This document shows positions 34,925 through 57,075 of a stretch of 64,000 bases of DNA, one piece after another. Below the pieces are notes generated by a model. The model saw only the letters and a list, made by a program, of their open reading frames with translations, did no database searches and was not told the DNA's origin. This stretch comes from Citrus sinensis (lineage: Eukaryota > Streptophyta > Magnoliopsida > Sapindales > Rutaceae). Both the position numbers and the translations under genes were made by a program. The stretch lies in contig NC_068561.1 in NCBI RefSeq assembly GCF_022201045.2, forward strand, positions 13,169,001 to 13,233,000, given 5' to 3'. The first letter of the stretch is position 1. Each line of letters starts with the position of its first letter.

Positions 34925-35482
34925 ATGGACAGAAACAAGATTCTAGTGAAGGTTCACAAGCGATTCCCTTCACTTCCTCAGAATACCCTCCTTACAATCT
35001 ATAAAGCCCGGTCCGAACGCATGCGATTACTTATAAGGAAAAACATACCTACTGACATCCATTGGTTAATCGAGGCTTAAGTATGATCGGCAGGTGAGTT
35101 ACCTCTAAAATTTATTGCATACATGCCTGGTTGTGGTAAAGGAAATTATGCAAGAAAACGATGAGCTCGAAGAATTTCTGTTGCTTGTCATAAGTGTGCC
35201 AGAATGAGTTGCAATAAAAACCCATGTTCTTTAGGAATAGTGTCTGATAACAAGGAAGATAAGATTCAATTCATTAGGGATGGCTTGAATAAGGAGTCAT
35301 TGGATAATATCCTTTTGTCTCTTGAAACGCATCCCAGTGGATATGTGCAAGGAGCGATTCTCCAGTTATGGCCATTATTCCAGAAAGAGCATGCACGATA
35401 TAGTCTCGGGAATCTGACTATAAATGACCCTGTTTGCCAGTTTATAAGAAAACTGGATAGGAAGCCTATCCTCGACCCATAG
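34925..35482 (+). pseudogene. Extra ORF Y, basic Cys-rich protein, copy A (broken)
   Basis: Same frame as the 185-codon ORF of copy B, here interrupted by stops at 35078-35080, 35084-35086 and 35162-35164; the last two are TGA where B has CGA. The cysteine cluster CHKCARMSCNKNPC and the flanking basic run are retained. Copy A shows that the ORF continues past copy B's stop (QKEHARYSLGNLTIND onward) to the shared terminal TAG at 35480-35482. Confidence 0.7.
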
Positions 35483-35780: not shown

Positions 35781-36473
35781 TTGTTAAGTACTCACAAATT
35801 ATTTTTGAGAAATATTCCAATGGCAGCTACTCCAAATAGACAATTCAAGAACATTTATGTGCTTTCTGGATTTACCTATGGCAAACATAAAGAGTTCGTT
35901 GAGACAGCCATCGATCTTGGTCGAAGTATAGCAGAGAGAAAATTACACTTGGTGTATGGAGGAGGTAACCGAGGGTTATCAAAAATGGTCTCAGAAGCAG
36001 CTTTTATCAGAGGAAGTCAAGTGTTAGGCATCATCTCAAGAATCTTAAAACCATTGGGCAGTTCGTCTGACTCATCAACTGGAGAATAGTTAGTCGTCTC
36101 AGGTATGCAAGAAAGAATAACTGAAATGCTTAATCATACTGATGCTTTTATTTTCTTTCCAGGAGATCTTGCAACACTAGAGGCACTTATCACACTAGCA
36201 TCTTGGGCCCATCTGCACATCCACCAGAAACCCATCAGTTTGTTAAATGTCAATAACTTTTATGATGGCTTTATCGCATTTTTTAACCATGAAATAAAAA
36301 ACTATTTCATTCCTTCTAATGTGAAAAAACTTTTTATTTGTGCTCACACTGCTAATGAGCTACTTGATCTGTTACAAGCTTATAAACCGGAGCCAGACCC
36401 CTAGACCTTTGTGTTGGAGCGCCCAAATAATGATGGTAACAGTAGCCGCAGTAAGAAGTACAAATTAATTTAA
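35781..36473 (+). pseudogene. Extra ORF Z, LOG-like protein, copy A (broken)
   Basis: LOG-family (lysine-decarboxylase fold) sequence in one frame with two stops: TAG at 36087-36089 where copy B has GAG, and TAG at 36402-36404 where B has TGG. The product keeps KLHLVYGGGNRGLS, the Arg in GMQERITEM (equivalent to the catalytic Arg of LOG enzymes), PGDLATLEA in place of PGGYGTLEE, and HQKPISLLNV. Upstream spacing from ORF Y matches copy B. Confidence 0.85.
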
Positions 36474-38406: not shown

Positions 38407-39764
38407 TGTTGAGTGTTAGAAAATGTATATTTATAAAGGAGAAAATTGTCATTTTACACTACAAGTTTTACTAACACCTTTACTTTTATGAATTTAACCT
38501 TCTTTTGATTTAATTCCGTGTGTTTTATTTTAATTAAGTATTTTATGTATTTTAGGGGCATCATAGTCATTTCACAATAAACGAAAAATCAGATGGCAAA
38601 ATAGACATCACTTTTGAACTCAGGACGGTCGAAAACCTTAGGAGTAGCATAAAAGGAAAAATGGCACTGTTCACATGTACGGTACTATTCACGTGTACGG
38701 TACTGTATACGTTACTGTTTACGATACTGTTCACATAGACGGACGATGACGTGGCATTGACCGATGATGTGGCATTAACTGATGAGGTGTCACGATCCTG
38801 TTGGACTAAAATTCTTATGTACTGTTGATGGTGACGTGGCAGCATATCAGTGGACCAAAAATCTCGCGTACGGTACATGCATCACACAGGATTATTTTCA
38901 ACCAAACCGCGTTACTATTCAACCCAGGTCAAACCGTGTTACTGTTCATCCATGTGGTCAAACCGCGTACTGTTGATTGATGACGTGGCGCAATCCTGAG
39001 CGTCCAAACTGTTTTTAATCTGATGGCCATGATTTGCTCCATGTATCTATAAAAAAAGGGGCCTCTCCCCCCTAATTTAATATCTCTGAATCCATTTTTG
39101 GGATCCATTTTCTGTAATTCCTTCTCTATCTTGTATTTTCTACGTATTTTAATAAATTTCTATTTTGCCCCTTGTTCAATTATGAGTGGCTAATTTTCTT
39201 TCAAGCTTGGGTTAAATGTGAAGTCTCAACATGTGTCATGGGGTTTATTTGGTAAATTTACTTTCTCTTCCCCTCTAATTTTTGTGGATGTTTTGACTTC
39301 TCGTCGACAAATAATACTAATCTTGTCTAGTACTGCCTTGGTTTCACCGGCCCCCTAGTACAAGGTTATTATTTTTTGGCACGATAAGCCCTTAGCACCA
39401 TATTAATTAGAGCGTGGTTCATGAGGTGTGGATTCCCCCCTCATGATTTAATTGACATTAATAAGTATTATTTAGCCCATGATGCATGTTGATACGGATC
39501 CAAATACCCAAGTACGTCATTTCAGTAGATTTCTCTTCAATTTATTCTCGTCATTTCAATTCCAATTTTAGAATTTATTCTCGCCATTTTAATTCCAATT
39601 TTATGATAATTTAAATCACTTCCACCACAAATCCAACCGCCCATTTACAAAATTAATTCTACATATAATTAAAATCCACCTCCTCGTAGGATCGACACTC
39701 GTCACCATTAGTCTATTCTACAATAGATTTGTGCGCTTGCGAGTACATTAAAATTTACACAACA
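38407..39764 (+). repeat. 3' LTR of copy A (1358 bp)
   Basis: It begins TGTTGAGTG after a polypurine tract and ends CACAACA, so it has TGTTG...CAACA termini. U3 carries three TGACGTGG motifs (38747, 38832, 38981). TATAAAAAAA at about 39048 marks the promoter and AATAAA at 39151 a poly(A) signal. The LTR end abuts reverse-transcriptase sequence of another copy directly. Confidence 0.88.
38747..39057 (+). promoter_or_regulatory. LTR promoter: TGACGTGG repeats and TATA box
   Basis: TGACGTGGC-type sites (bZIP/TGA-factor or G/C-box hybrid motifs) at 38747-38754, 38832-38839 and 38981-38988 precede TATAAAAAAA at 39048. Copy B's LTR keeps two of the three (50662, 50811) and the TATA box (about 50878). 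Direct copies of ACTGTTCA(C) are interspersed. Inducible transcription is inferred from motifs only. Confidence 0.5.
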
Positions 39765-40930
39765 ATAGACGTTTCATTAAAGATTTCAGCAAAGTTTCTA
39801 GACCCTTATACAATTCACTTGCTAAGGATGTACCTTTTATCTTTAATGATTCATGTCTTGTGGCTTTTGAAAAATTAAGGCATTTGTTGACATCATCACC
39901 CATCATTCAGGCCCCAAACTGGAGCTTACCATTTGAGCTCATGTGTGATACATCTGATTATGCAGTAGGAGCAATATTAGGACAGAGAGTTGATCGAATT
40001 TCTCATGTTATTTACTATGCTAGTATGACATTGAATGATGCACAGTTGAACTATTCAACTACTGAAAAAGAAATGCTAGCAGTAGTATTTGCATTAAAAA
40101 AATTTCGATCTTATCTCATTGGTTGTAAAATAATTATGTTCACAGATCATGCTGCTCTTAAATATCTTCTCACGAAAAAAGATGCAAAAGCTAGACTAAT
40201 TCGTTGGGTGTTACTTTTGTAGGAATTCGACTTGTAATTTAAAGATAAGAAAGGCACAGAGAATGTTGTAGCAGACCATCTCTCTCGTCTCCATTTTGAC
40301 ACAATTTCTGAACTTTTAACATTGAATGAGTCATTTCCAGATGAACAATTAATGAGTGTGGAAATATTACCTTGATATGCTGATATAGTTAATTATCTTG
40401 TTACAGGTCAACTTCCAGAGCATTGGACCAAGCAAGACAAGGCTAAATTCTTTGCAGAAATAAAGAATTTCTTTTGGGATGACCTTTATTTGTTCAAGTA
40501 TTGTGCAGATCAAATTGTTAGGCGATGTGTCCCAGAAAGTAAAATTCAGAATATCATTTCATTCTGTCATGAACAAGCTTGTGGAGGTCATTTCAGTGCT
40601 AAGAAAACAGCTACTAAAGTTTTACAATGTGGTTTCTAATTGCCAACTATATTTTGAGACGCTTACACTTTTTGTTCTTCATGTGATAGGTGTCAACGAA
40701 TGGGAAGTATTACGTGAAGGAACATGATGCCACTAAATCCAATTTTAGTGGTTGAGATTTTTTACGAATGGGGTATCGACTTCATGGAACCCTTTCCTTC
40801 TTCTTTTAGCCATCAATACATATTGGTTGCTGTTGACTACGTATTGAAATAGGTAGAAGCAATTCCATGCAGAACTAACGATCACAAGGTGGTGGTAGGA
40901 TTTTTGAAAAGCAATGTTGTCGTAGGTCAT
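39765..40930 (+). pseudogene. Ty3 pol fragment, copy C (RT end, RNase H, integrase start)
   Basis: It starts inside the RT thumb ([16 protein letters not shown]), continues through RNase H ([27 protein letters not shown]) and the integrase zinc region to GFLKSNVV. It carries multiple stops, for example 40220 (TAG, Q in copy B), TAA shortly after, and 40373-40375 (TGA, W in copy B). It is neither the continuation of A nor the start of B, so it is a third copy. Confidence 0.88.
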
Positions 40931-40975: not shown

Positions 40976-42718
40976 CCTAATCTTGAACCTATAGACCTTG
41001 AACTAGAAAAAACACTTCTCACATACAAGCACGTGAAAAATAAATTTGGAATGGATTTACAAGCACCATAGGAGAGGCCATTTAAGGACTATTTTAGTCA
41101 TTTAGCTAATTTGAGCACATTATGTATAAGATACCCAAATATAACTGCTAAGAGCTTTGAACTAAAACCTAGTGTGCTAAATTGTCTCCCCACATTCTAT
41201 GACTTAGAAAATGAGGACCCATATAATCATCTGAATGATTTTCATGCTATTTGTCAAATATTTAAATATGAGAATTTTTCAGACGATGATGTGAAACTCA
41301 GATTATTCTCATTTTCTTTAAAGGATAGAGCTCATTCATGGTTAAGTACTTTGCCTGCTAATAGCATTACATCATGGGAACAAATGGTAACTAAATTTTT
41401 GAATAAATATTTCCCAGTGCATAAAACCAATGTTATTCGCAGAGAAATTTCAGAGTTTACACAGAGAGAAGATGAGCAGTTTTTCGAAACATGGGAGCGA
41501 TTCAATGGGCTACTCTTGAAGTGTCCACATCATGGGTACGAGAAATGGCACCAATGCCAATATTTTTTGGAGGGATTATTGCCGAATGTGCAAGAATGGC
41601 TAATAGCAACAAGTGGAGGAGAGCTAATGTCAAAAAGTGCATCAGAAATTTAGAAATTCTTCCAGCGACAAGTAGATAATTCCCAACAACGAAGTCGATC
41701 ACTCATGAATACTAGAAGAATTAAGGGAGTAAATGATGTTCACATTGGCGAGTCAAGTTCAGAAATTAAAGAAGTCAAAGTGATAATTGAATGTCTCTCT
41801 CGACAAATAGCATCGTTATCGACTGCTAAATCAACAGAGCCACATGACCATGACTCGTACTCAGATCAAGCCAATGCCATAGGTGTAATGAGAAAACCAT
41901 CGAATTACAACCCATACTCCAACACATATAACCCTGGATGGAGAGACCACCCCAATTTTTCATGGTCTCAAGGATTACAGCAGAATGGACCAGCAGCTCC
42001 AGCTCCACTAATTCCTCAAAATCCTCAAGCCTCTCAGCCACCATTTAGACCATACAATCAAAACTAGAACTACTCTCAACTCAGACCATGGGAGGATGCA
42101 TTCCAGAATTTCAAGAATGTTACTCACTCTACGATTGAGCAACAGAACCGCACCATTGATGGACTACGAAATGAGTTGCGAGCAGGCTTTAACTCACAAG
42201 CCCAATCAGTTTCAAGCTTCGAGAAGATGGTGGGACAACTTGCTTCTTCAGTTCAGACCTTGGCAATGACTGTTGAGAAAGACAAGTTTCCAAGTCAACC
42301 AGTGCCTAATCCTAAAGGAGTACATGAAGCAAGTACCAGTTCATCACAGCAGCATGGAGAGCTCAAAGTAGTCATGACCTTGCGAAAAGGAAAAGAAGTC
42401 GACAACAAAGTGGAGATGCCGGTGACAAAAGAAAATCAAATTGTACCTGTGAATGTTGATGACTCACCATCAGAGGAGAAAGAAGAAACCAACCCGCGAG
42501 AATATGTTCATAAAGCTCCATTTCCTCAGAGGTTAGCTAAAGGAAAGAAGGGAAAATCCACAGGTGAGATTCTCGAAATCTTCAAACATGTAAGTTTAAT
42601 ATCCATTTACTTGATATTATTAAAAAAGTTCCATCTTATGCCAAGTTTCTTAAAGACCTTTGTACTAAAAAGAGAAAAATTCATGTTCAAAAGAAGGCAT
42701 TTTAACAAAAAACGTTAG
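40955..42718 (+). pseudogene. Athila-type gag, copy B (broken)
   Basis: One frame with stops at 41069, 41651 and 42065, then a frameshift near 42600. Retrotrans_gag features: FYDLENEDPYNHLNDFH, LRLFSFSLKDRAHSWLSTLP, FLNKYFPVHKT and FNGLLLKCPHHGYEKWHQCQ. A Q/P/N-rich linker follows. No CCHC knuckle is seen, which is normal for Athila gag. The sequence 'KAPFPQRL' marks the approach to protease. Confidence 0.88.
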
Positions 42719-42719
42719 T

Positions 42720-45700
42720 TCTATCCTTCAACACAAAATTTCGCTAAAATACAAAGACCCAGGATCCCCCACTATCTCATGTAGTATAGGGAACCACACA
42801 ATTGAGAATGCTTTGTTGAATTTAGGAGCTAGTGTAAATTTGTTGCATTATTCAGTATTTGTGAAACTTGGACTGGGAGAATTACACCCAACTCCAGTAG
42901 TGTTACAGCTTGCAGATCGGTCCACGAAAATACCTCGTGGTATTGTGGAGGACGTGCTTATCCAGGTAGACAAGTTTTATTTTCCTGTTGATTTCATTGT
43001 AATTGACACTCAACCAATACAGGATTCAAGGAAGCACATCCTCATTATTTTAGGCCGACCTTTCTTGGCAACTGCAGATGCTCACATTCAATGCAGGATT
43101 GGAAATATGCAGTTGTCCTTCGGCAACATGACTATGGAGCTGAACATCTTCAACATTGCCAAACAACCTCACAATGCAGATGATGGAATTGTTGATATGG
43201 ATTTAATAGAAACAATAGTTGATAACACTTTTCTTTCAAACCTTAATGATGATCCTTTACAAAAATATTTAACTCACTTTAGTTTTGATTTTGATATTGA
43301 CAGATCGGTTGATGAGGTCAACGCCTTGCTTGACTCAGCACCATCTATGGACACTAATAAATGGAAGTCAAGAGTTGAACAACTAGCACCATCAGAGAAG
43401 AAACTCATCTCATCATCAGAATCACCATTTAAACTCGAGCTCAAACCATTACCCAACACTCTGGAATATGCATTTTTGGGAGAAGAAAGTACTCTGCCGG
43501 TAATCATCTCATCATCCCTAAATGACGAACAAAAAAGTAAGTTGTTGGATGTTTTAAAAGAGCACAAAGGAGCATTAGGATGGACCATGGCAGACATAAA
43601 AGGTATAAATCCAGTAGACTGCATGCATTACATTCACCTTGATGAAAATGCTAAATCTACTAGGGAAATGCAACGTCGGTTAAATCTTAATATGAAAGAA
43701 GTTGTTAGAACAGAAGTCCTTAAGCTATTTGACGTAGGTATCATTTACCCAATTTCTGATAGTTCATGGGTCAGTCCTGTACAAGTTGTCCCCAAAAAGT
43801 CAAGAGTCACAGTAGTTACGAATGCTGATAATGAATTGATACCCACTAAAGTGACTACATGATAGCATGTATGCATTGATTATAGAAAGTTGAATTCTGT
43901 CACACGTAAAGACCATTTTCCTTTACCATTTATTGATCAAATGCTTGATAGATTAGCAGGCCATGAATTTTATTGCTTTCTAAATGGCTACTCAGGATAC
44001 AATCAGATCCCCATAGCACCAAAAGATCAAGAGAAGACCACTTTCACTTGCCCTTTTGGCACATTTACATATAGGAGAATGCCATTTGGATTATGTAATG
44101 CACCTGCTACATTTCAACGATGCATGTTAAGCATTTTTTCTGATATGGTTGAACGATTCCTAGAAGTCTTTATGGATAACTTTTCTATCTTTGGTGATTT
44201 GTTTGAACAATGTTTACATCATCTAACATTAGTTCTGCAGAGATGTATCGAGAAGAACTTGGTCTTAAATTGAGAGAAATGTCATTTTATGGTAAAACAA
44301 GGTATTGTTCTCGGTCACATCATTTCGAGCAAAGGTATTGAGGTTGATAAAGCCAAGGTGGATCTTATTTCTAATCTTCCTCCACCTAAAACAGTCAGAG
44401 AAGTAAGATCTTTCCTTGGGCATGCTGGTTTTTATAGACGTTTTATTAAAGATTTTAGCAAAGTTTCTAGACCCTTATGCAATTTACTTGCTAAGGATGT
44501 AATTTTTGTCATTGATGATTCATGTCTTGTGGCATTTGAAAAGTTAAAGCAATTGTTGGCATTATACCTATCATTCAGCCCCCAAACTGGAGCGTACCAT
44601 TCGAGCTCATGTGTGATGCATCTGATTATGCAGTAGGAGCAGTTTTAGAACAAAGAGTTGATCGAATTCCCCACGTTATTTACTATGCTAGTATGACATT
44701 AAATGATGCACAGTTGAACTATTCAACTACTGAAAAAGAAATACTAGCAGTAGTGTTTGCATTAGAGAAATTTCGATATTATCTCATTGGTTGTAAAATA
44801 ATTATATTCACAGATCATGCTGCTCTTAAATATCTTCTCACAAAGAAAGATACAAAAGCTAGACTAATTCGTTGGATGTTACTTTTGCAGAAATTTGACT
44901 TGGAATTCAAAGATAAGAAAGGGACAGAAAATGTTGTGGCTTACCACCTCTCTCGTCTCCATTTTGACACAATTACAGAGCCATTAATATTGAATGAGTC
45001 ATTTTTAGATGAACAATTAATGAGTGTGGAAGTATTACCTTGGTATGCTGATATAGTTAATTATCTTGTTACAGGTAAACTTCCAGAGCATTGGACCAAA
45101 CAAGATAAGGCTAAATTCTTTGCAGAGATAAAGAATTTCTTTTGGGATGACCCTTATTTGTTCAAGTATTGTGTAGATCAAATTGTTAGACGATGTGTCC
45201 CAGAAAATGAAATTCAGAATATCATTTCATTCTGCCATGAACAAGCTTGTGGAGGCCATTTTAGTGCTAAGAAAACAGCGACTAAAGTTTTACAATGTGG
45301 TTTCTATTGGCCAACTATATTTCGAGACGCTTACACTTTCTGTTCTTCATGTGATAGGTGTCAACGAATGGGGAGTATTACGCGAAGGAACATGATGCCA
45401 CTAAATCCAATTTTCGTGGTTGAGATTTTTGATGTATGGGGTATCGACTTCATGGGACCCTTTCCCCTTTCTTTTGGCCATCAATACATATTAGTTGCTA
45501 TTGACTATATATCGAAATGGGTAAAAGCAATTCCATGCAGAACCAATGATCACAAGGTGGTGATAAGATTTTTGAAAAGCAATATTGTCTCACGCTTTGG
45601 ATTCCCTCGAGCAATAATCAGTGATGGTGGTGCCCATTTTTGTAACAAAGCATTCAAAGCTCTTTTGACAAAGTATTCAATCACTCATAAAGTGGCGACC

Positions 45701-46327
45701 CCATATCATCCGCAAACTAGTGGCCAAGTTTAGATCTCCAATCGAGAAATAAAGCACATATTAGAAAAGATGGTGAGGCCGGACAGAAAAGATTGGTCAT
45801 TAAGACTTGATGATGCATTATGGGCATATAGAACGGCTTTCAAGACTCCGATTGGGATGTCACCCTACATGCTAGTGTATGGATACTTACCTGTGGAACT
45901 TAAGCATCGTGCATATTGGGTTATCAAGAAATTCAACTTTGACATGCAGCAAGCCAGCTTAGAAAGAAGATTACAGCTGCGAGAACTTGAAGAAATTTGT
46001 AATGATGCATACGAAAATGCCAAGATTTACAAGCAACGAATGAAAGTCTTCCATGACAAGCAAATTATGAGAAAATCGTTCACTCCAGGTCAGAAAGTGC
46101 TTTTATTCAATTCTCGCTTACACCTATTCCCAGGTAAGTTACGCTCTCGATGATCTGGTCCCTTTATTGTTCATACTGTTTTTCCACATGGGGTAATTGA
46201 AATTAAAGACCCAAATAACGGTGTCACATTTAAAGTTAATGGTCAAAGATTAAAGCCATATCTAGAGTACCAACCACATGGAGAAGACACCGAAATAAAT
46301 TTGAGTGACCCACCAGATTTGAATTGA
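42720..46327 (+). pseudogene. Ty3 pol (protease, RT, RNase H, integrase), copy B (broken)
   Basis: Protease: NLGASVNLL, with Asn where the catalytic Asp is expected. RT: PFIDQMLDRLAGHEFYCFL, FGLCNAPATFQR, and FMDNF in place of (Y/F)MDDF. RNase [25 protein letters not shown]. Integrase: H/H and CSSCDRC zinc residues, [18 protein letters not shown]. Stops at 43860-43865 and 44271 and at 46151 replace Trp/Arg codons; 45731 replaces Glu. A one-base deletion near 44559 relative to copy C changes frame. The last stop is at 46325-46327. Non-functional. Confidence 0.92.
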
Positions 46328-46826: not shown

Positions 46827-47384
46827 ATGGATAGAAACGAGATTCTAGCGAAGGTTCACAAGCGATTCCCTTCACTTCCTCAGAATGCCGTCCTTACAAT
46901 CTATAAAGCCCGGTCCGAACGCATGCGATTGCTCGTGAGGAATAACATACCTGCTGACATTCGTTGGTTAATCGAGGCTAAAGTACGATTTACAGGTGAG
47001 TTACCTCCAAAATTTATTGCATACATGCCTGGTTGTGGTAAAGGAAATTATGCAAGAAAACGACGAGCTCGAAGAATTTTTGTTACTTGTCATAAGTGTG
47101 CCAGAATGAGTTGCAATAAAAAACCATGTTCTTTAAGAATGATGTCTGATAACAGAGAAGATAAGATTCAATTCATTAGGGATGGCTTGAATAAGGAGTC
47201 TTTGGATGATATCATTTTGTCTCTTGAAACGCATCCCAGTGGATATGTGCAAAGAGCGATTCTTCAGTTATGGCCATTATTCTAGAAAGAGCATACACGA
47301 TATAGTCTCGGGAATCTGACTATAAACGACCATGTTTGCCAGTTTATAAGAAAATTGGATGGGAAGCCTATCCTCGACCCATAG
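46827..47384 (+). pseudogene. Extra ORF Y, carlavirus NABP-like Cys-rich protein, copy B
   Basis: A 185-codon frame with one internal stop at 47283-47285 (TAG; CAG in copy A) leaves a 152-residue open N-terminal part. The N-terminal half is helical (MDRNEILAKVHKRFPS...). The middle has GKGNYARKRRARR, then the cysteine array C-x2-C-x4-C-x4-C (CHKCARMSCNKKPC), about residues 75-102. The order glycine, tyrosine-alanine, arginine-rich run, CxxC, then CxxxxC resembles the small cysteine-rich nucleic-acid-binding proteins of carlavirus-type RNA viruses, some of which suppress RNA silencing. The loop between cysteine pairs is shorter here. Homology is inferred by eye; a cellular zinc-ribbon origin is possible. 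Confidence 0.55.
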
Positions 47385-47662: not shown

Positions 47663-48370
47663 TTGTTAAGCACTCATAAATTATTTTTGAGAAATATTCC
47701 GATGGCAGCTACTCCCAATAGACAATTAAAGAACATTTGTGTGCTTTATGGATTTACCTATGGCAAACATAAAGAGTTCGTTGATGCAGCCATAGATCTT
47801 GGTCGAAGTATAGCAGAGAGAAAATTACACTTGGTGTATGGAGGAGGTAACCGAGGGTTATCAAAATTGTTCTCAGAAACTGCTTTTGTCAGAGGAAACC
47901 AAGTGTTAGGCATCATCCCAAGAGTCCTAAAACCTTTGGGCAGTTTGTCTGACTCACCGACTGGAGAAGAGTTAGTCGTCTCAGGTATGCAAGAAATAAT
48001 AACTGAAATGCTTAATCATGCTGATGCTTTTATTTTCATTCCAGGAGATCTTGCAACACTAGAGGCATTTATCACACTAGCATCTTGGGCCCATCTGCAC
48101 ATTCACCAGAAACCCATCGGTTTGTTAAATGTCAATAATTTTTATGATGGCTTTATCGCATTTCTTAACCATGCAAAAAAAAACTATTTCGTTCCTTCCA
48201 ATGCCAAAAAGCTTTTTATTTGTGCTCACACTGCTAATGAGATACTTGATCTGTTACAAGCTTATAGACCAGAGCCAGACCCCTGGACCTTTGTGTTGGA
48301 GCGTCCAAATAATGATGGTAACAGTAGCTGCAGTAAGAAGTACAAATTAGATTTAACTCTCCGCTTGTAA
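47663..48370 (+). CDS. Extra ORF Z, intact LOG-like protein in retrotransposon copy B
   Basis: An uninterrupted 235-residue frame with a TAA stop; a second Met at residue 14 (MAATPNRQ) is a plausible alternative start. LOG enzymes release active cytokinin bases from riboside monophosphates. Family landmarks: ICVLYGF (strand 1), LGRSIAERKLHLVYGGGNRGLS (usual VYGGGSVGLMG), VLGIIPRVL, EMLNHADAFIFIPGDLATLEA (usual PGGYGTLEE), and SWAHLHIHQKPIGLLNV. Oddities: the catalytic Arg of the GM-x-x-R region is Ile in this copy (Arg in copy A), and two Gly plus the last Glu of the PGGxGTxxE motif are replaced in both copies. Enzyme activity is therefore doubtful. The ORF lies between integrase and LTR, as a captured gene. 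Confidence 0.85.
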   Translation: MLSTHKLFLRNIPMAATPNRQLKNICVLYGFTYGKHKEFVDAAIDLGRSIAERKLHLVYGGGNRGLSKLFSETAFVRGNQVLGIIPRVLKPLGSLSDSPTGEELVVSGMQEIITEMLNHADAFIFIPGDLATLEAFITLASWAHLHIHQKPIGLLNVNNFYDGFIAFLNHAKKNYFVPSNAKKLFICAHTANEILDLLQAYRPEPDPWTFVLERPNNDGNSSCSKKYKLDLTLRL

Positions 48371-50236
48371 ATATTTTCTTCTGTGTTGCACCACTCAGGT
48401 GATGTCTTCTAAACTCTACTTCTTTCCTTTTAAACATTGAGGACAATGTTATGTTCTGGTTGGGGGGAGGGAATAGTTGACAATTGTGGAATCTTGGTTA
48501 AGTTTTTACTAATTTTTTGTTGTAGAAACTAACTGTTGCTAACTTTTTGTGTTGAAGATGGCTAAATATGGAGTGTAGTGACTCTAGAAACGCATCTTCA
48601 TCGTTTGAAAAAAAAATTAAAAAAAATCAAAAAAATTCAGACATTTTCTTTTTCTTTATTAAGTTTTGATGTTCATTTTTCTTCTTCTTTTTAATTTCTC
48701 CTTTATAAATGTACATTTTCAAATATTTGAGGCGAAGATGGCTGAATATGGAGAGTAGTGCCTCTAGAAATGCATCTTCTTAGTTAAAAAAAAATATTTC
48801 TTTTTCTAATAAATTTTTCTGCATCATCTTCACATTTCTGCATGCATATTTTCCTTTCATGTTTAGAATAGGCTGGGGGGTAGAATGTTGTTTAAAAAAA
48901 AATTTGTGTGATTTTTTTTAACATTGGATGACATGATTAATTTCAAATTTTAGTATTTGTATTATCTTTGGTCTTAAGCGATGTTACATTATGTTTGTTA
49001 CTCTACATGTTGATGTCGGAGACAAATATGAGTTGCTTGAAAGAATGAACATGTCATAAATAAGTGCCAAGTGAGTTTTTGAGCCTATCATTTTTCTTGG
49101 AGAGTAACATTTTTGCTCATTCTTTATACAACTTAGTGGTTTATTATTGTATACACGATCTCTAGATTTCTTTTGAGTTAACCCTTAAAAAAAATTATAA
49201 AATTAAAAAAAAATGTGTGTTGCTACATTGGGAGGCCCATCTAACTAGTAGATATGGAAGGTTATTTAAAGCCCTAAAAGACGATGGAAATGTCATTTTT
49301 GATCCGTTTGAGCATTTCTAGCCATCCCTTTTGTGAAATATCCATAGTTAACCATTTTAAGCCTTTTAAAAAAAAGAAAAATAAAGCTTTTTATTTGTTA
49401 AACTTATCATCTTGACCCACTCCGATTTAGAGTATTACTCGATGTCTTATAAGTTCCATCACCTATTTATGTTTAAGAAAAATGTAAATAATTATTTTTC
49501 TCAGTGACGTTGTGCCAAGCAAAAGTAAAAAAAAAATTGTTTCAAAAAAAAAAAGAAGAAAAAAAATAACAATAATAGGTGAAATCCACCTTGTAACTTC
49601 AAAAAAAAAAATTCCTCTGCATTTTTCTCAAATATACACTTTGTTTTTCTTATTTCCCTTCTTTGTTAACCATGTCCCTAACCTACGTTACGTCCTAATA
49701 AAAGTCCTTCTTGATTTTAAGGAACTATAGTCTGAAGTAAAAGCTAGTTATATGGGCTAAAAAGATGTAGTGATGCATAATAAAAAAAAAAGAAAAAAAG
49801 AAGATAAATAAAGTGGGTCGACTAGCATTTTTGTTTGACTTGAGATCGTATTATTTCTAAACTGATGGCATATTTATTTCATCTTGGTGAGAGCATGTGA
49901 TATCACTTCTTTATTATTTTCTCTCAATTACCATTCATTGGAGTGACTATTTTTATTGGTTTTAATTTCTTTGTGAGAGTGTCACTACTTCCAGTGAGAT
50001 TTTGGGGTTTGACATGTCATTCTTGAAGGTAACTATGACAAAGTCTACTAGGTTGATTCATGTGGATGGTTGATGTGGGTGTGATGTTGCTTTAGACTGG
50101 AGATAATACTTATACTTTTATTTAATTGCTATCATTAGTTTGATTGAATAAACAAGATTGTTTAAAAAAAAAATTGTGTTTGAATTTTGTTTTTGCTTTA
50201 TTTGCTAGGGACTAGCAATAAGCTGGTTGGGGGGTG
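48371..50236 (+). other. Non-coding 3' region of copy B, with polypurine tracts
   Basis: Collinear with 36474-38406 of copy A, including 'cattgaggacaatgt', GGTTGGGGGGAGGG (about 48456-48472), 'ggctggggggtagaatg' (about 48872) and the LTR-adjacent GGTTGGGGGGTG (50225-50236). A/T homopolymer lengths differ from copy A. Confidence 0.7.
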
Positions 50237-51561
50237 TGTTGAGTGTTAGAAAATGTATATTTATAAAGGACAAAATCGTCATTTTACACTTCAAGTTTTA
50301 CTAATACCCTTACTTTTATGTATTTAACCTTCTTTTGATTTAATTCCGTGTGTTTTATTTTAATTAAGTATTTTATGTATTTTAGGGGCATCATAGTCAT
50401 TTCACAATAAACGAGAGATCAAACGGTAAAACGGACATCACTTTTGAACTCAGGACGGTCGAAAACCTTAGGAGGAGCATAAAAAAAAAATGACACTGTT
50501 CATGTGTACGATACTATTCACGTGTACGGTAGTGTCTACGTTACTGTTCACGACACTGTTCACATAGACGGATCGATGATGTGGCATTGACCGATGATGT
50601 GGTATTGACTAATGAGGTGTCACAATCCTGTTGGACTAAAATTCTTATGTACTGTTGATGGTGACGTGGCAGCATATCACTGGACCAAAAATCTCGCGTA
50701 TGGTACATGCATCACACAGGATTATTTTCAACCAAACCACATCACTGTTCAACCCGGGTCAAACTGTGTTACTGTTCATCCGCGTGGTCAAACCACGTAC
50801 TGTTGACTGATGACGTGGCGCATTCTTGAGCGTCCAAACTGTTTTTAATCCGATGGCCATGATTTACTCCATGTATCTATAAAAAGGGGGCCTCCCCTCC
50901 CTAATTTGATAGCTCTGAATCCATTTTTTGGATCCATTTTCTGTAATTCATTCTCCATCTTGTATTTTCTACGTATTTTAATAAATTTTTATTTTGACCT
51001 TAGTTCAATTATGAGTGGCTAATTTTCTTTCAAGCTTGGGTTGAAGGTGAAGTCTCAACATGTGTCATGGGTTTTATTTGGTAAATTTACTTTCTCTTCC
51101 CCTCTAATTTTTGTGGATGTTTTGACTTCTCGTCGACAAATAATACTAATCTTGTCTAATACCACATTGGTTTCATCGGCCCCCTAGTACAAGGTTATTA
51201 TTATTTGGCATGATAAGCCCTTAGCACCATATTGATTAGAGTGTGGTTCATGAAGTGTGGATTCCCCCCTCATGATTTAATTGGTATTAATAAGGAATAT
51301 TCAGCCCATGATGCATGTTGATACGAATCCAGATACCCAAGTACGTCAATTTAATAGATTTTCACTTCAATTTATTCTTGCCATCTTAATTCGAATTTTA
51401 GGATAATCCAAATCATTTTCACCATAAATCCAACGACCCTCATAGAAAATTAATTCTACAAACAATTAAAATCCACCTCCTTGTGGGATTGACACTCATC
51501 TCTATTAATCTATTCTACAATAGATTTGTGCACTTACGAGTTCAATAAAATTTGCACAACA
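50237..51561 (+). repeat. 3' LTR of copy B (1325 bp)
   Basis: TGTTGAGTG start and CACAACA end, alignable over its full length with the LTR at 38407-39764 with scattered substitutions and small indels. TATA box at about 50878. The copies are not a 5'/3' pair of one element, so their divergence does not date a single insertion. Confidence 0.88.
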
Positions 51562-51599
51562 AAAGTTATTTATGAATGAATGATAAAAGAAAAAGGGTA

Positions 51600-52960: not shown

Positions 52961-52999
52961 TATAGCGGCGGGAGCTGGTGAACAGCCCTGCCGACAACA

Positions 53000-55900
53000 A
53001 TGAAAATCATAAGTTGGAACGTTTTGGGTTTGGGGAATCCCCAGACACGCCTAGCTATGAGGAAAATTCTCCAACAAGACAGACCTCAGCTTATTTTTGT
53101 GCGCGAAACGAAGTTGGAGGCTGTAAAAATCCATGAAGAATGTAAAAAGCTTGGTTTTGATGAGTGCTTTACAGTAAGTAGAAATGGGAAAAGTGAAGGC
53201 ATAGTTATAATGTGGAAGTCTGACATTAATGTACACATTCTCTCCTACAGTAGGCATTACATTGATGTTAAAGTGCAGAGTGGCAATGGCAAAAAATGGC
53301 GATGTACTGGAGTCTACGGGCACCCGGAAGCTCAACAAAAGCAGCATACGTGGACTCTATTACGAAGGTTATCAGGTTTGTCCTCAAAACCATGGTTGTG
53401 CTTTGGTGATTTTAATGAAATATTGAGGTTGGATGAGAAAAGTGGAGGGAATGATAAAAACATTAGGATGGTTTCTGAGTTCAAAGAAGCTGTTCAAGAT
53501 AGTAAGTTGGCTGATTTGGGTTATAAAGGGTATCAATTCACGTGGTGTAACGGCATGGATGGGCAACACTTTGTTGAGGAGAGGTTGGATAGATTCTTAT
53601 GCAATGAAGAGTGGGGGAACCATTTCCAGGAGCAACCGTGCCAAAACTTAGTTAGTGTAGGTTCTGATCATTATCCAATAATGATGGAGATAAAAAAGAA
53701 AGGTCCCGGTTTGCAGTATGTGAAAAAAACCTTTCCCAGGGTGCATTACGAGGACATGTGGAGCTCGTATGATACTTGTAAAAGCATAATAAAAGCTGAA
53801 TGGGAGAATTATGGTGTTGTAAAAGGTGGAAGCCCTGTAATGCAATTCAAGGTTGTGGCAAAGTCATCGTTGGCTCATTTAAAATAGTGGAGTGAGGAGG
53901 AGTTTGGAGGTCAGGAAAGGAAGTTAAAAACGCTGATGAAAGAGCTTCAAAAGGCAAAGCAAAGCAAGATGCATTATGAAGAGGCAAATGGCATAAGGCA
54001 GATTGAAAAGCAAATCCACAATATTCTGCTGGAGGAGGAAATTTATTGGAGGCATAGAGTTAGAGCGAACTGGTTGCAAACAGGTGACAAAAACACTAAA
54101 TTTTTTCACTCAAAAGCCACAGCTAGAAAGAGGAAAAATAGAATTTGGGGTGTGGAGAAAAAAGAAGGCAGCTGGACAGAAGATGGAGAAGCTATAGAAA
54201 GAGAGTTTGATGATTATTTTCAGCAACTCTTCACATAATCCAAGCTGAGCCAAGATCAGATGAACGCAGCACTGGAGGGCTTAACACCAAAGGTTACAGC
54301 AACCATGAATGACCAGCTGAATGCCTCTTTTACAGCAGAGGAAATATCAGAAGCTTTGTTCCAAATGTGTCCCACTAAAGCACCTGGCCCGGACGGATTG
54401 AATTCAATGTTTTTTCAAAAGCATTGGCAGCATGTTGGCAAAGGAGTGACCCAAACCTGTCTACACATATTGAATAATCAAGGTAACCTCAGCCCCTTAA
54501 ATCATACATTCATTGCCTTGATTCCGAAAGTTGCCAAACCTAGGAAAGTCACCGAATACAGACCTATTAGTCTATGTAATGTGGTGTATAGAATTGTTGC
54601 AAAAGTTATAGCTAATAGGTTGAAGCAAGTTCTCCACCAAATCATTTCCCCTTATCAAAGTGCATTCGTGCCCAATAGAATTATTACGGATAATATTGTT
54701 ATTGGGTACGAATGCCTTCACAAAATAAGGCACAGTAAAGGGAGGAAAAATGAGCTGGTATCTCTCAAGTTAGATATTAGCAAAGTTTATGATAGGGTAG
54801 AATGGGGCTTTTTAGAGCACATTATGAGGAGATTAGGCTTCATAGAAAAATGGGTACAGTTAGTCATGAAATAGGGCTGCCGCAAATTTAATTCAACCTC
54901 AAATGGGGTTGTGGCAGGGGTGCCCTCTATCACCTTACTTGTTTATTTTATGTGCAGAAGGTTTCTCTAATTTACTCATGCAGGTTGAAAGGGAGAAACT
55001 GATTCCTGGACTCAAATTTGATAAATAAGTAACGGTCTCACATCTTTTGTTCGCTGATGACAGCTTTGTTTTCACCAAAGCATCTGTTGAAGATTGTCGA
55101 AACTTAAAAGCAATTTTCGATTGCTATGCAGCCGCCTCAGGACAGATTTTCAACTATGAAAAATCTTCAATGTTTTGTAGTGGGAAGCTTCCAGCAAAGC
55201 AAATCACAGCCATCAAAAACATTTTCCAATTGAAAATGGTGTCTAAATACGAAAAATATTTAGGCTTACCATCCATGATTGGAAGAAAAAAGATGAGCTT
55301 CTTTAATGAGGTGAAGCTAAAAGTTTTGAGTAAGATTTCAAAATGGCAAAATAATTTTTTTTCAAGCGGAGGCAAAGAAGTGTTGATAAAGGCGGTAGCT
55401 CAGGCTGTCCCGGCTTACGCCATGAGCGTATTTAAACTTCCATTGACATTATGTGAAGGCATTCAGAAAGCAATTGCCAAATTCTGGTAGGGAACTAACA
55501 AAGAGAAGCACGACATTCATTGGGCTAGATGGGAGAGAATGAGCCATGCTAAGCATAGAGGTGGTTTGGGTTTCAGAGACATTTCATGCTTCAATTAGGC
55601 CTTGGTAGCAAAGCAAAGCTGAAGAATTATTCAAAATCCGGAATCTCTAATGGCAAGAGTTCTCAAAGCAAGATATTTCAAGCATGATGACTTCCTCAAC
55701 ACCAAGATAGGTTCCAACCCATCCTTTATATAGAGAAGCATAATGTGGGGCAGACAAATAATTCTAAAAGGCTCAAGATGACGAATCGGTTCTAGGGAAA
55801 AGGTCAAAGTTTACAGAAGCAATTGGCTGCCGCGGCCAACAACTTTTAGGCCAATATCGCCAAGAACCCTTGCTGTAGATGCTAAAGTGGCAGAGCTGAT

Positions 55901-57075
55901 AAGCCCCGAAGGAGAGTGGAAGAGGGATATGATCCAACAGAATTTTATTAAAGAAGATGCAGAAATCATTTCAAGGATTCCCCAGCCAAGGTACACAGCA
56001 TTGGATGAGTTATGTTGGCATTATGATAAGCTCGGGAAATATTTGGTCAAAAGTGGCTACCAAATAGCTTTAAAGGAAAAATTTCCAAGTGCCCCAAGCA
56101 GCTCAAACCCAGACCCCAAATAATGGAATGCCATATGGAAGCTAGACCTCCAAGAAAAGATAAAGATATTTATATAGAGGGCTATTAAAAACCTGCTACC
56201 AACAGCCGAAAACTTGTGGAGAAGGAAGGTGGTGCCAGACCCAATTTGTCAAATATGCAAACGGGGAGTGGAAACTAGTTTTCATGCAATGGTTGAATGC
56301 AAAGCAGCAAGGAAGATTAGGCAACTTTTTCACCATGCAGTTGTGGAGATCACAGCCTCTCAATGGAGGAATATGTTTGATGTATTTCTTGATACAACAA
56401 GGCTCCTGAACAAAAAGGAGAATGAGCTGCAGGTTGCATATTGGTGGGCTACGTGGAACGCAAGAAACCATTTCCTCTTCAAAAAGGAAAAACTGGATGC
56501 TTTAATTTCAGTTGCCAAAGCTGAAGGTGTAGTAGAAGCCTATAGAAAATTCAAAAGGACCGAGCAACAGCAGTTGGAAAGCTCAAACATGGAGAAGCCT
56601 AAGCAATGGAAACCCCCGCTCGAAAACTGGTGCAAAGTAAATGTGGATGCTGCAATTGACCATCAAAGTCAAAGAGCTGGGTTGGGAGTGGTGATAAGGA
56701 ATGATAAAGGAGATGTGGTTGCTGCAGCCATTAAGCCCTCAAGTTTCAACGGAGATGTGCCTTTTGCAGAAGTTGAAGCAATTGAATGGGGAATGCAAAT
56801 GGCAAAAAGGGCAGGAATCACTACAGTCATTTTGGAATCAGATTGTCAAGCAGCCATTGATTTGGCAAACAACAAAAAGGGCAGCAAATCTGAGATTTTT
56901 TGGGTGATATCAGAAATCAACGATAGGCGAAAAGAGTTCCAGGAAGTCCGATTGCAATAGACCCTTAGGTCTTGTAATGCAAATGCCCATACCTTAGCTA
57001 AGCTAGCTGTAAAAGGTTCAAAATCCGTTGAATGGCTAGGAAATATACCAGCACAAGTCATGTGTTTATTCTCTT
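53000..57075 (+). pseudogene. LINE ORF2 (endonuclease, RT, RNase H)
   Basis: Begins MKIISWNVLGLGNPQT, the AP-endonuclease start; WLCFGDFNEIL and VSVGSDHYPIMM keep catalytic residues. RT motifs: APGPDGLNSMFFQKHW, YRPISLCNVVYRI, and the intact core FADDSFVF at about 55047. A C-terminal RNase H includes NVDAAIDHQSQRAG, AEVEAIEWG and LESDCQAA. Stops at 53885, 54236, 54872, 55488 and several later positions, plus an apparent deletion at about 54875-54900 that changes frame, make it inactive. Many stops fall on expected Trp codons. Confidence 0.9.

Follow-up and report, generated by a model that had tools for sequence, protein, structure and literature searches.

Does a plant retrotransposon that carries a gene of the cytokinin-activating LONELY GUY (LOG) family supply an active enzyme, or is the captured gene put to some other use? 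The question was raised by an open reading frame (ORF) at positions 47663–48370 of a 64,000-nucleotide stretch of the Citrus sinensis genome (assembly GCF_022201045.2, contig NC_068561.1, positions 13,169,001–13,233,000 of the forward strand; hereafter the window), which an earlier reading made from the letters alone (the sequence-only reading) had assigned to the LOG family and placed in an Athila-type element. In this analysis, we established the anatomy, copy number, and recent movement of the element, the loss of the LOG active site, purifying selection, a conserved C-terminal tail, and the family homology of a second ORF upstream, which resembles viral nucleic-acid-binding proteins (NABPs). 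The reading that we favor, tentatively and with somewhat less than even confidence, is that the two ORFs encode an accessory module of two proteins, which would act on host transcription or silencing and not in making cytokinin. Most extra ORFs of plant retrotransposons have no known conserved domains (PMC9289625, PMC11728184); here, one young multicopy family carries two recognizable ones.

A LOG fold with a replaced active site

On the plus strand, the open frame extends from 47630 to its stop codon, which ends at 48370. The codon at 47663 is TTG and not ATG; the LOG-homologous part runs from the first ATG to the stop (47702..48370) and encodes 222 residues, which was also the commonest length among the database relatives listed. 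PF03641 was detected in this ORF with an E-value of 2.5e-23 (83.2 bits against a Pfam cut-off of 27), and the best-matching solved structure was 2a33 (At2g37210, LOG3; E = 1.3e-41). The AlphaFold model, with a mean pLDDT of 75.2, gave target TM-scores of 0.92–0.94 against the Arabidopsis LOG8 and LOG3 chains, and its last 31 residues (192–222) had pLDDT values below 50. With both the PF03641 domain and the LOG fold present, the protein belongs to the LOG family, which confirms the homology proposed in the sequence-only reading; the landmark motifs quoted there are present. Named database relatives, up to 91% identical, came from Citrus x changshan-huyou, and one 90% cluster in the protein database (P0003) held 705 member sequences. 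The element protein shares its fold, PF03641, and many conserved residues with plant type-I LOG proteins such as AtLOG3 (2a33) and AtLOG8 (1ydh), but differs from them in being element-borne, in its replaced active site, and in an extra tail with the sequence LDLTLRL.

In CgLOG, the AMP phosphate is bound by the PGGxGTxxE motif, which also contains Glu122, one of the two residues proposed to be catalytic (the other is Arg99), and alanine mutants at active-site places, S19A excepted, lost nearly all activity (PMC4979012). With residue roles taken from that source, the place of PGGxGTxxE reads PGDLATLEA in the window copy (48041..48067, plus strand), and that of MHxRK reads MQEII (47987..48001, plus strand), with Ile for the catalytic Arg. 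The motif with its catalytic Glu was absent from the element copies, in which it reads xGDLATxEA: in all 33 genome copies compared, the catalytic Glu was replaced by Ala, the last two motif glycines by Asp and Ala, and the adenine-binding Lys by Ile. The motif's Thr and its first Glu were kept in 33 of 33 and the Arg of MHxRK in 30 of 33. Among 120 database clusters, 107 had Ala and 7 had Thr instead of the catalytic Glu, 116 had Asp at the first of these two glycines, and one kept the Lys. The element protein is thus probably no working cytokinin-activating enzyme, as judged from these replacements, and the expectation that the element might supply active cytokinin was not borne out. An active LOG-type or altered enzyme would agree with the retained Arg, Thr, and first Glu, with a PF03641 score well above cut-off, and with the finding that plant LOGs can differ in activity (PMC11593424). 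However, the window copy lacks even the Arg, and alanine at such places nearly abolished the activity of CgLOG; with the active site replaced, we rejected this as the principal explanation and consider it quite improbable. Because the active site is replaced, the database name "phosphoribohydrolase" is probably wrong as to activity for the element copies. Many citrus entries annotated as cytokinin riboside 5'-monophosphate phosphoribohydrolase appear to come from such elements and probably encode no working enzyme, which should serve as a warning in annotation.

The ORF could also have been a functionless passenger, a host gene that the element captured and multiplied with itself, since LTR (long terminal repeat) elements can transduce host genes (PMC7264820). 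We calculated ratios of nonsynonymous to synonymous divergence (dN/dS) by the Nei–Gojobori method with our own script for four subfamilies, namely the main group, L042/L043, L045/L047, and L048 (L043 has one stop). Between subfamilies, the LOG-like ORF gave dN/dS values of 0.16–0.26 at dS values of 0.45–0.95. These values largely refute a neutral passenger, which we rejected and regard as very improbable. For the NABP-like ORF, dN/dS was 0.16–0.26 between the main group and the others, where dS exceeded 1 and was near saturation, and 0.28–0.54 among the other three subfamilies (dS 0.15–0.44). Higher values were obtained between close copies, up to 0.51 for the LOG-like ORF and 1.10 for the NABP-like ORF in one pair with only two synonymous changes. 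The protease/reverse transcriptase and RNase H/integrase regions gave 0.04–0.27 (main group only). With its active site replaced in all 33 genome copies compared and its dN/dS between subfamilies nevertheless this low, the LOG-like protein looks like a selected pseudoenzyme. Between L042 and L045, the neighboring ORFs differed in synonymous distance (NABP-like dS 0.16, LOG-like dS 0.51), which suggests that parts may have been exchanged between subfamilies.

An EAR-like tail and a virus-like upstream ORF

The LOG-like protein ends in LDLTLRL (48347..48367, plus strand), as seen in the sequence and in the comparison of copies. This heptapeptide fits LxLxL, which is an EAR consensus (PMC9956375). 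Among eight representatives, the linker varied in 14 of its 24 columns, the core in 73 of 182, and KLDLTLRL in 2 of 8. The Leu, Asp, Leu, Thr, Leu, and final Leu columns of the motif were invariant (32 of the 32 copies with letters there; 31 of 31 for the last), although synonymous changes occur in three of the codons concerned; the Arg column showed one Gln and one Trp. LxLxL lay within the last eight residues in 31 of the 33 genome copies, the other two stopping early, and in 89 of the 120 database clusters. Canonical plant LOGs had it in the last 40 residues in none of 120 cases and elsewhere in one of 120. The tail as a whole is variable and, from the model, probably disordered, and it was not seen in canonical LOGs. 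The oomycete effector HaRxL21, which likewise carries LxLxL near its C-terminus, binds TOPLESS through that motif (PMC7446885). We regard the fit of LDLTLRL to an LxLxL EAR motif able to recruit TOPLESS corepressors as a strong lead; TOPLESS binding has been demonstrated for HaRxL21, whereas for the element protein it is a prediction.

The LOG-like protein might instead serve the element's own cycle in a ligand-binding, structural, or chaperone-like capacity, or stand in for an envelope-like protein, with the EAR-like tail incidental or otherwise used. The loss of catalysis with retention of the fold would suit such a role. However, it leaves the conservation of the last residues behind a variable linker unexplained, and no transmembrane or capsid feature was met, though none was searched for; we judge it possible but unlikely.

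The second ORF (46827..47285, plus strand) resembles virus NABP/CRP proteins, with a Cys-x2-Cys-x4-Cys-x4-Cys cluster and a basic run. The four Cys were kept in 33, 33, 33, and 32 of 33 copies. At E-values up to 1, family members matched PF01623 in 17 of 21 cases (best 2e-7) and PF05515 in 13 of 21 (best 4.5e-8), and two of the five citrus gene models scanned (P0054 and P0080) passed the PF01623 cut-off with 21.9 against 20.9 bits. The element ORF has in common with the NABP/CRPs of carla-, allexi-, and mandariviruses (PF01623, PF05515) a family-level Pfam match and a basic run beside the Cys cluster, but it differs from them in residing in chromosomal retrotransposon copies, in being longer, in the score of the window copy below cut-off, and in a function that is predicted only. 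Of 157 NABP-like database hits, 120 were listed; the minority of these that carry a name were from Citrus, Xanthoceras (a cluster of 47), Acer (15), and Striga. Among viral relatives, p12 of chrysanthemum virus B is a nuclear transcriptional activator and a cytoplasmic silencing suppressor (PMC7588395), and the mandarivirus CRPs of citrus viruses have a nuclear signal and a zinc finger, one of them suppressing local silencing (PMC12172455). A profile search of the PDB with the NABP family gave a best E-value of only 0.047. The database proteins P0054, P0065, and P0080 are Citrus gene models in which NABP-like and LOG-like parts are fused, as annotated. Neither the virus-like ORF nor the EAR-like tail had figured in the sequence-only reading.

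Taken together with the position of the LOG-like gene as the last ORF behind a flexivirus-type NABP, these features allow the favored two-protein module to be outlined as follows. An Athila-type Ty3/gypsy element would have captured a plant LOG coding sequence before the present subfamilies split; the captured copy would since have been stripped of its phosphoribohydrolase active site, would have retained the LOG fold, and now has a disordered tail that closes with an EAR-type motif. Both the NABP-like and the LOG-like protein would be made from element RNA, either full-length or spliced. The former may bind RNA and blunt silencing, act in the nucleus, or both. The latter, an unlikely cytokinin maker that displays an EAR tail on a LOG fold, may recruit or titrate TOPLESS-type corepressors or pair with host LOG. 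This scheme predicts that the LOG-like protein lacks LOG activity and binds TOPLESS via its last seven residues, and that the product of the virus-like ORF binds RNA or suppresses silencing. A more pointed version, to which we give only limited credence, is a host-manipulation module in which a virus-type silencing suppressor and a LOG-derived pseudoenzyme, made into a TOPLESS-binding effector by its EAR tail, counter silencing and alter transcription or cytokinin output, as pathogens do.

Several observations weigh against the module. The NABP-like ORF of the window scored weakly (PF05515, E = 0.0069; PF01623, E = 0.0085; both below the Pfam cut-off), and its model was poor (mean pLDDT 57.9). 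Scans of IMG/VR with both ORFs confirmed no relative, and a scan for the viral NABP pattern gave no matches. LxLxL alone is no proof of TOPLESS binding, the motif being short and spotted post hoc, and ten other LxLxL-containing effectors failed to bind TOPLESS (PMC7446885). The motif was absent from 31 of the 120 database clusters, although many of these seem to be gene models that end differently. No strong nuclear signal was noticed in the LOG-like protein, for which no dedicated test was made.

The pairing with host LOG raises a further alternative, a dominant-negative LOG that would join host subunits and lower cytokinin activation. LOGs function as dimers, and their active site is located at the dimer pocket (PMC4979012), and the element protein keeps the LOG fold; however, it is only 39–40% identical to a citrus LOG, and we consider this alternative improbable. 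More broadly, the LOG-like protein may sequester cytokinin metabolism, as the sequence-only reading had already suggested, or interfere with it.

Carrier element, copies, and origin

With the LOG frame, we searched the genome in which the window lies (299.7 Mb in 11 contigs) and scored 150 of 2110 first-look candidates, best first, which favors good copies. All 150 places, the window included, matched all or nearly all of the frame at 88–100% identity, and 146 had no internal stop. A chance frame is excluded because every scored place matched, and a local accidental insertion was rejected, the matches being spread over contigs C1–C9. Together with recurrence of the gene in copy A of the window (35781..36467, plus strand, with two stops), the matches support the view that the gene was part of the element before it multiplied.

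As judged from its sequence, the carrier is a young multicopy LTR retrotransposon with Athila-type features, namely TG..CA LTRs, a tRNA-Asp primer site, and 3' extra ORFs. In six single elements, the LTR pairs were compared piecewise; all pieces were identical in four, and those of the other two were 98.8–100% identical. Element movement has been recent, because the LTR pairs are identical or nearly so. TG..CA LTRs and a 5-bp target duplication were readable in five of the six, and the LTR start and duplication were unreadable in the sixth. The primer site TGGCGCCGTTGCCGGGG was found in all seven stretches searched and is complementary to the end of tRNA-Asp; the tRNA 3' pattern occurred at 14 places in the same genome, and the one fetched was tRNA-Asp(gtc). 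A tRNA-Asp primer site is typical of Athila. This site and the two extra ORFs (NABP-like and LOG-like) between integrase and the 3' LTR lend support to the Athila-type assignment. Among 17 fetched stretches of 9.9 kb, the gag-pol region was open for 1600 codons or more in 14, the frame continuing to the truncated 5' end of the stretch; an open NABP-like frame of 188 codons was present in 16, and a LOG frame of 237 codons or longer in 16. The repeat finder reported no tandem array in the 3' part.

In a phylogenetic tree, 13 element LOG rows grouped on a single branch with support 100/100, separate from 23 plant LOGs; a single branch of element-borne copies was what the sequence-only reading had named as support. 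The element stem was 2.76 changes per column, the bacterial outgroup was a single and itself very long row, and LOG5- and LOG7-type proteins were not deliberately included; with this long stem and single outgroup, the tree leaves the source of the capture unplaced among the plant LOG clades. A search of the same genome with a citrus LOG gave 150 scored matches, none above 40% identity and with the host LOG exons not among them.

An abstract by Steinbauerova et al. 2011 reportedly describes two Athila-like elements with similarity to LOGL4. In 2022, the YgdH domain known from LONELY GUY proteins was reported for Gypsy consensus sequences of C. sinensis and C. clementina and, when a filter was switched off, of poplar as well, which agrees with Steinbauerova et al. 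2011 (PMC9289625). A LOG-like gene in a plant LTR retrotransposon, which the sequence-only reading had taken to be new, was therefore already in print for Citrus Gypsy elements. These share host genus and element type with the carrier and are very likely this family; the passages on Citrus Gypsy in that paper mention neither loss of the active site nor selection, and neither an EAR-like tail nor a virus-like neighboring ORF. The same source describes orchid Gypsy elements with an m6A demethylase ORF, likewise a host-type domain kept as an extra ORF; the orchid demethylase was active in vitro, whereas the active site of the citrus element LOG is lost. Among the literature matches listed for LOG, YgdH, or NABP in retrotransposons, LOG in such elements was found only in PMC9289625, and no report of NABP in a retrotransposon was recognized by title or by the opening of the abstract. 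Nothing on the replaced active site, on selection, on the EAR-like tail, or on the NABP partner was met among those matches either; EAR and retrotransposon were not searched jointly, and we make no claim that the EAR-like tail is unpublished.

Copies A and B and other features of the window

The LOG-like gene studied here belongs to copy B, in which gag-pol is split over several frames, and the NABP-like and LOG-like frames are open. The features given in this paragraph lie on the plus strand. The gag of copy B is at 41072..41653 (PF03732, 2.2e-21), followed by the protease and the start of the reverse-transcriptase region in a broken gag-pol frame at 42669..43862, where PF13650 was below cut-off (E = 0.00021) and the sequence matches the continuous pol frame of other copies. 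RNase H and integrase are at 44540..45733 (PF17917, 1e-37; PF00665, 9.8e-16; PF17921, 6.2e-13). The 3' LTR, 1.3 kb in two aligned pieces, is at 50237..51562 and is 85–90% identical to LTRs of other copies; the LOG-like frame thus lies between integrase and the 3' LTR, as first proposed. An LTR between copies A and B (38407..39765) is 91% identical to LTRs of other copies, and the NABP-like gene of copy A (34925..35380) has three stops.

At 39765–40914, a 1.15-kb RNase H/integrase fragment begins exactly where the LTR between copies A and B ends, a place taken up in other copies by the primer site and leader; the join looks like a recombinant junction. Irregular joins were also seen elsewhere in the genome. 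At L011 1681–1682, an LTR end joins the post-integrase part directly, giving a derivative with the NABP-like and LOG-like genes and no gag-pol there, and at L029 3467–3468 pol sequence passes abruptly into the inside of an LTR. L009–L011 (contig C8) form a tandem duplication of approximately 11.17 kb with 99.9% identity, and similarly spaced pairs occur elsewhere in the match list. On the 3' side of the LOG stop, a hairpin (GAAGATGG...CATCTTC) is repeated at 48554–48599 and 48734–48779, the first folding at -16.3 kcal/mol (z = -3.17); a scan of five other copies counted the pattern 1, 2, 2, 0, and 2 times. Beyond the element, frames on the plus strand at 52982–56960 read like a LINE-type element with endonuclease, reverse transcriptase, and RNase H, an assignment made by reading and not by a family search.
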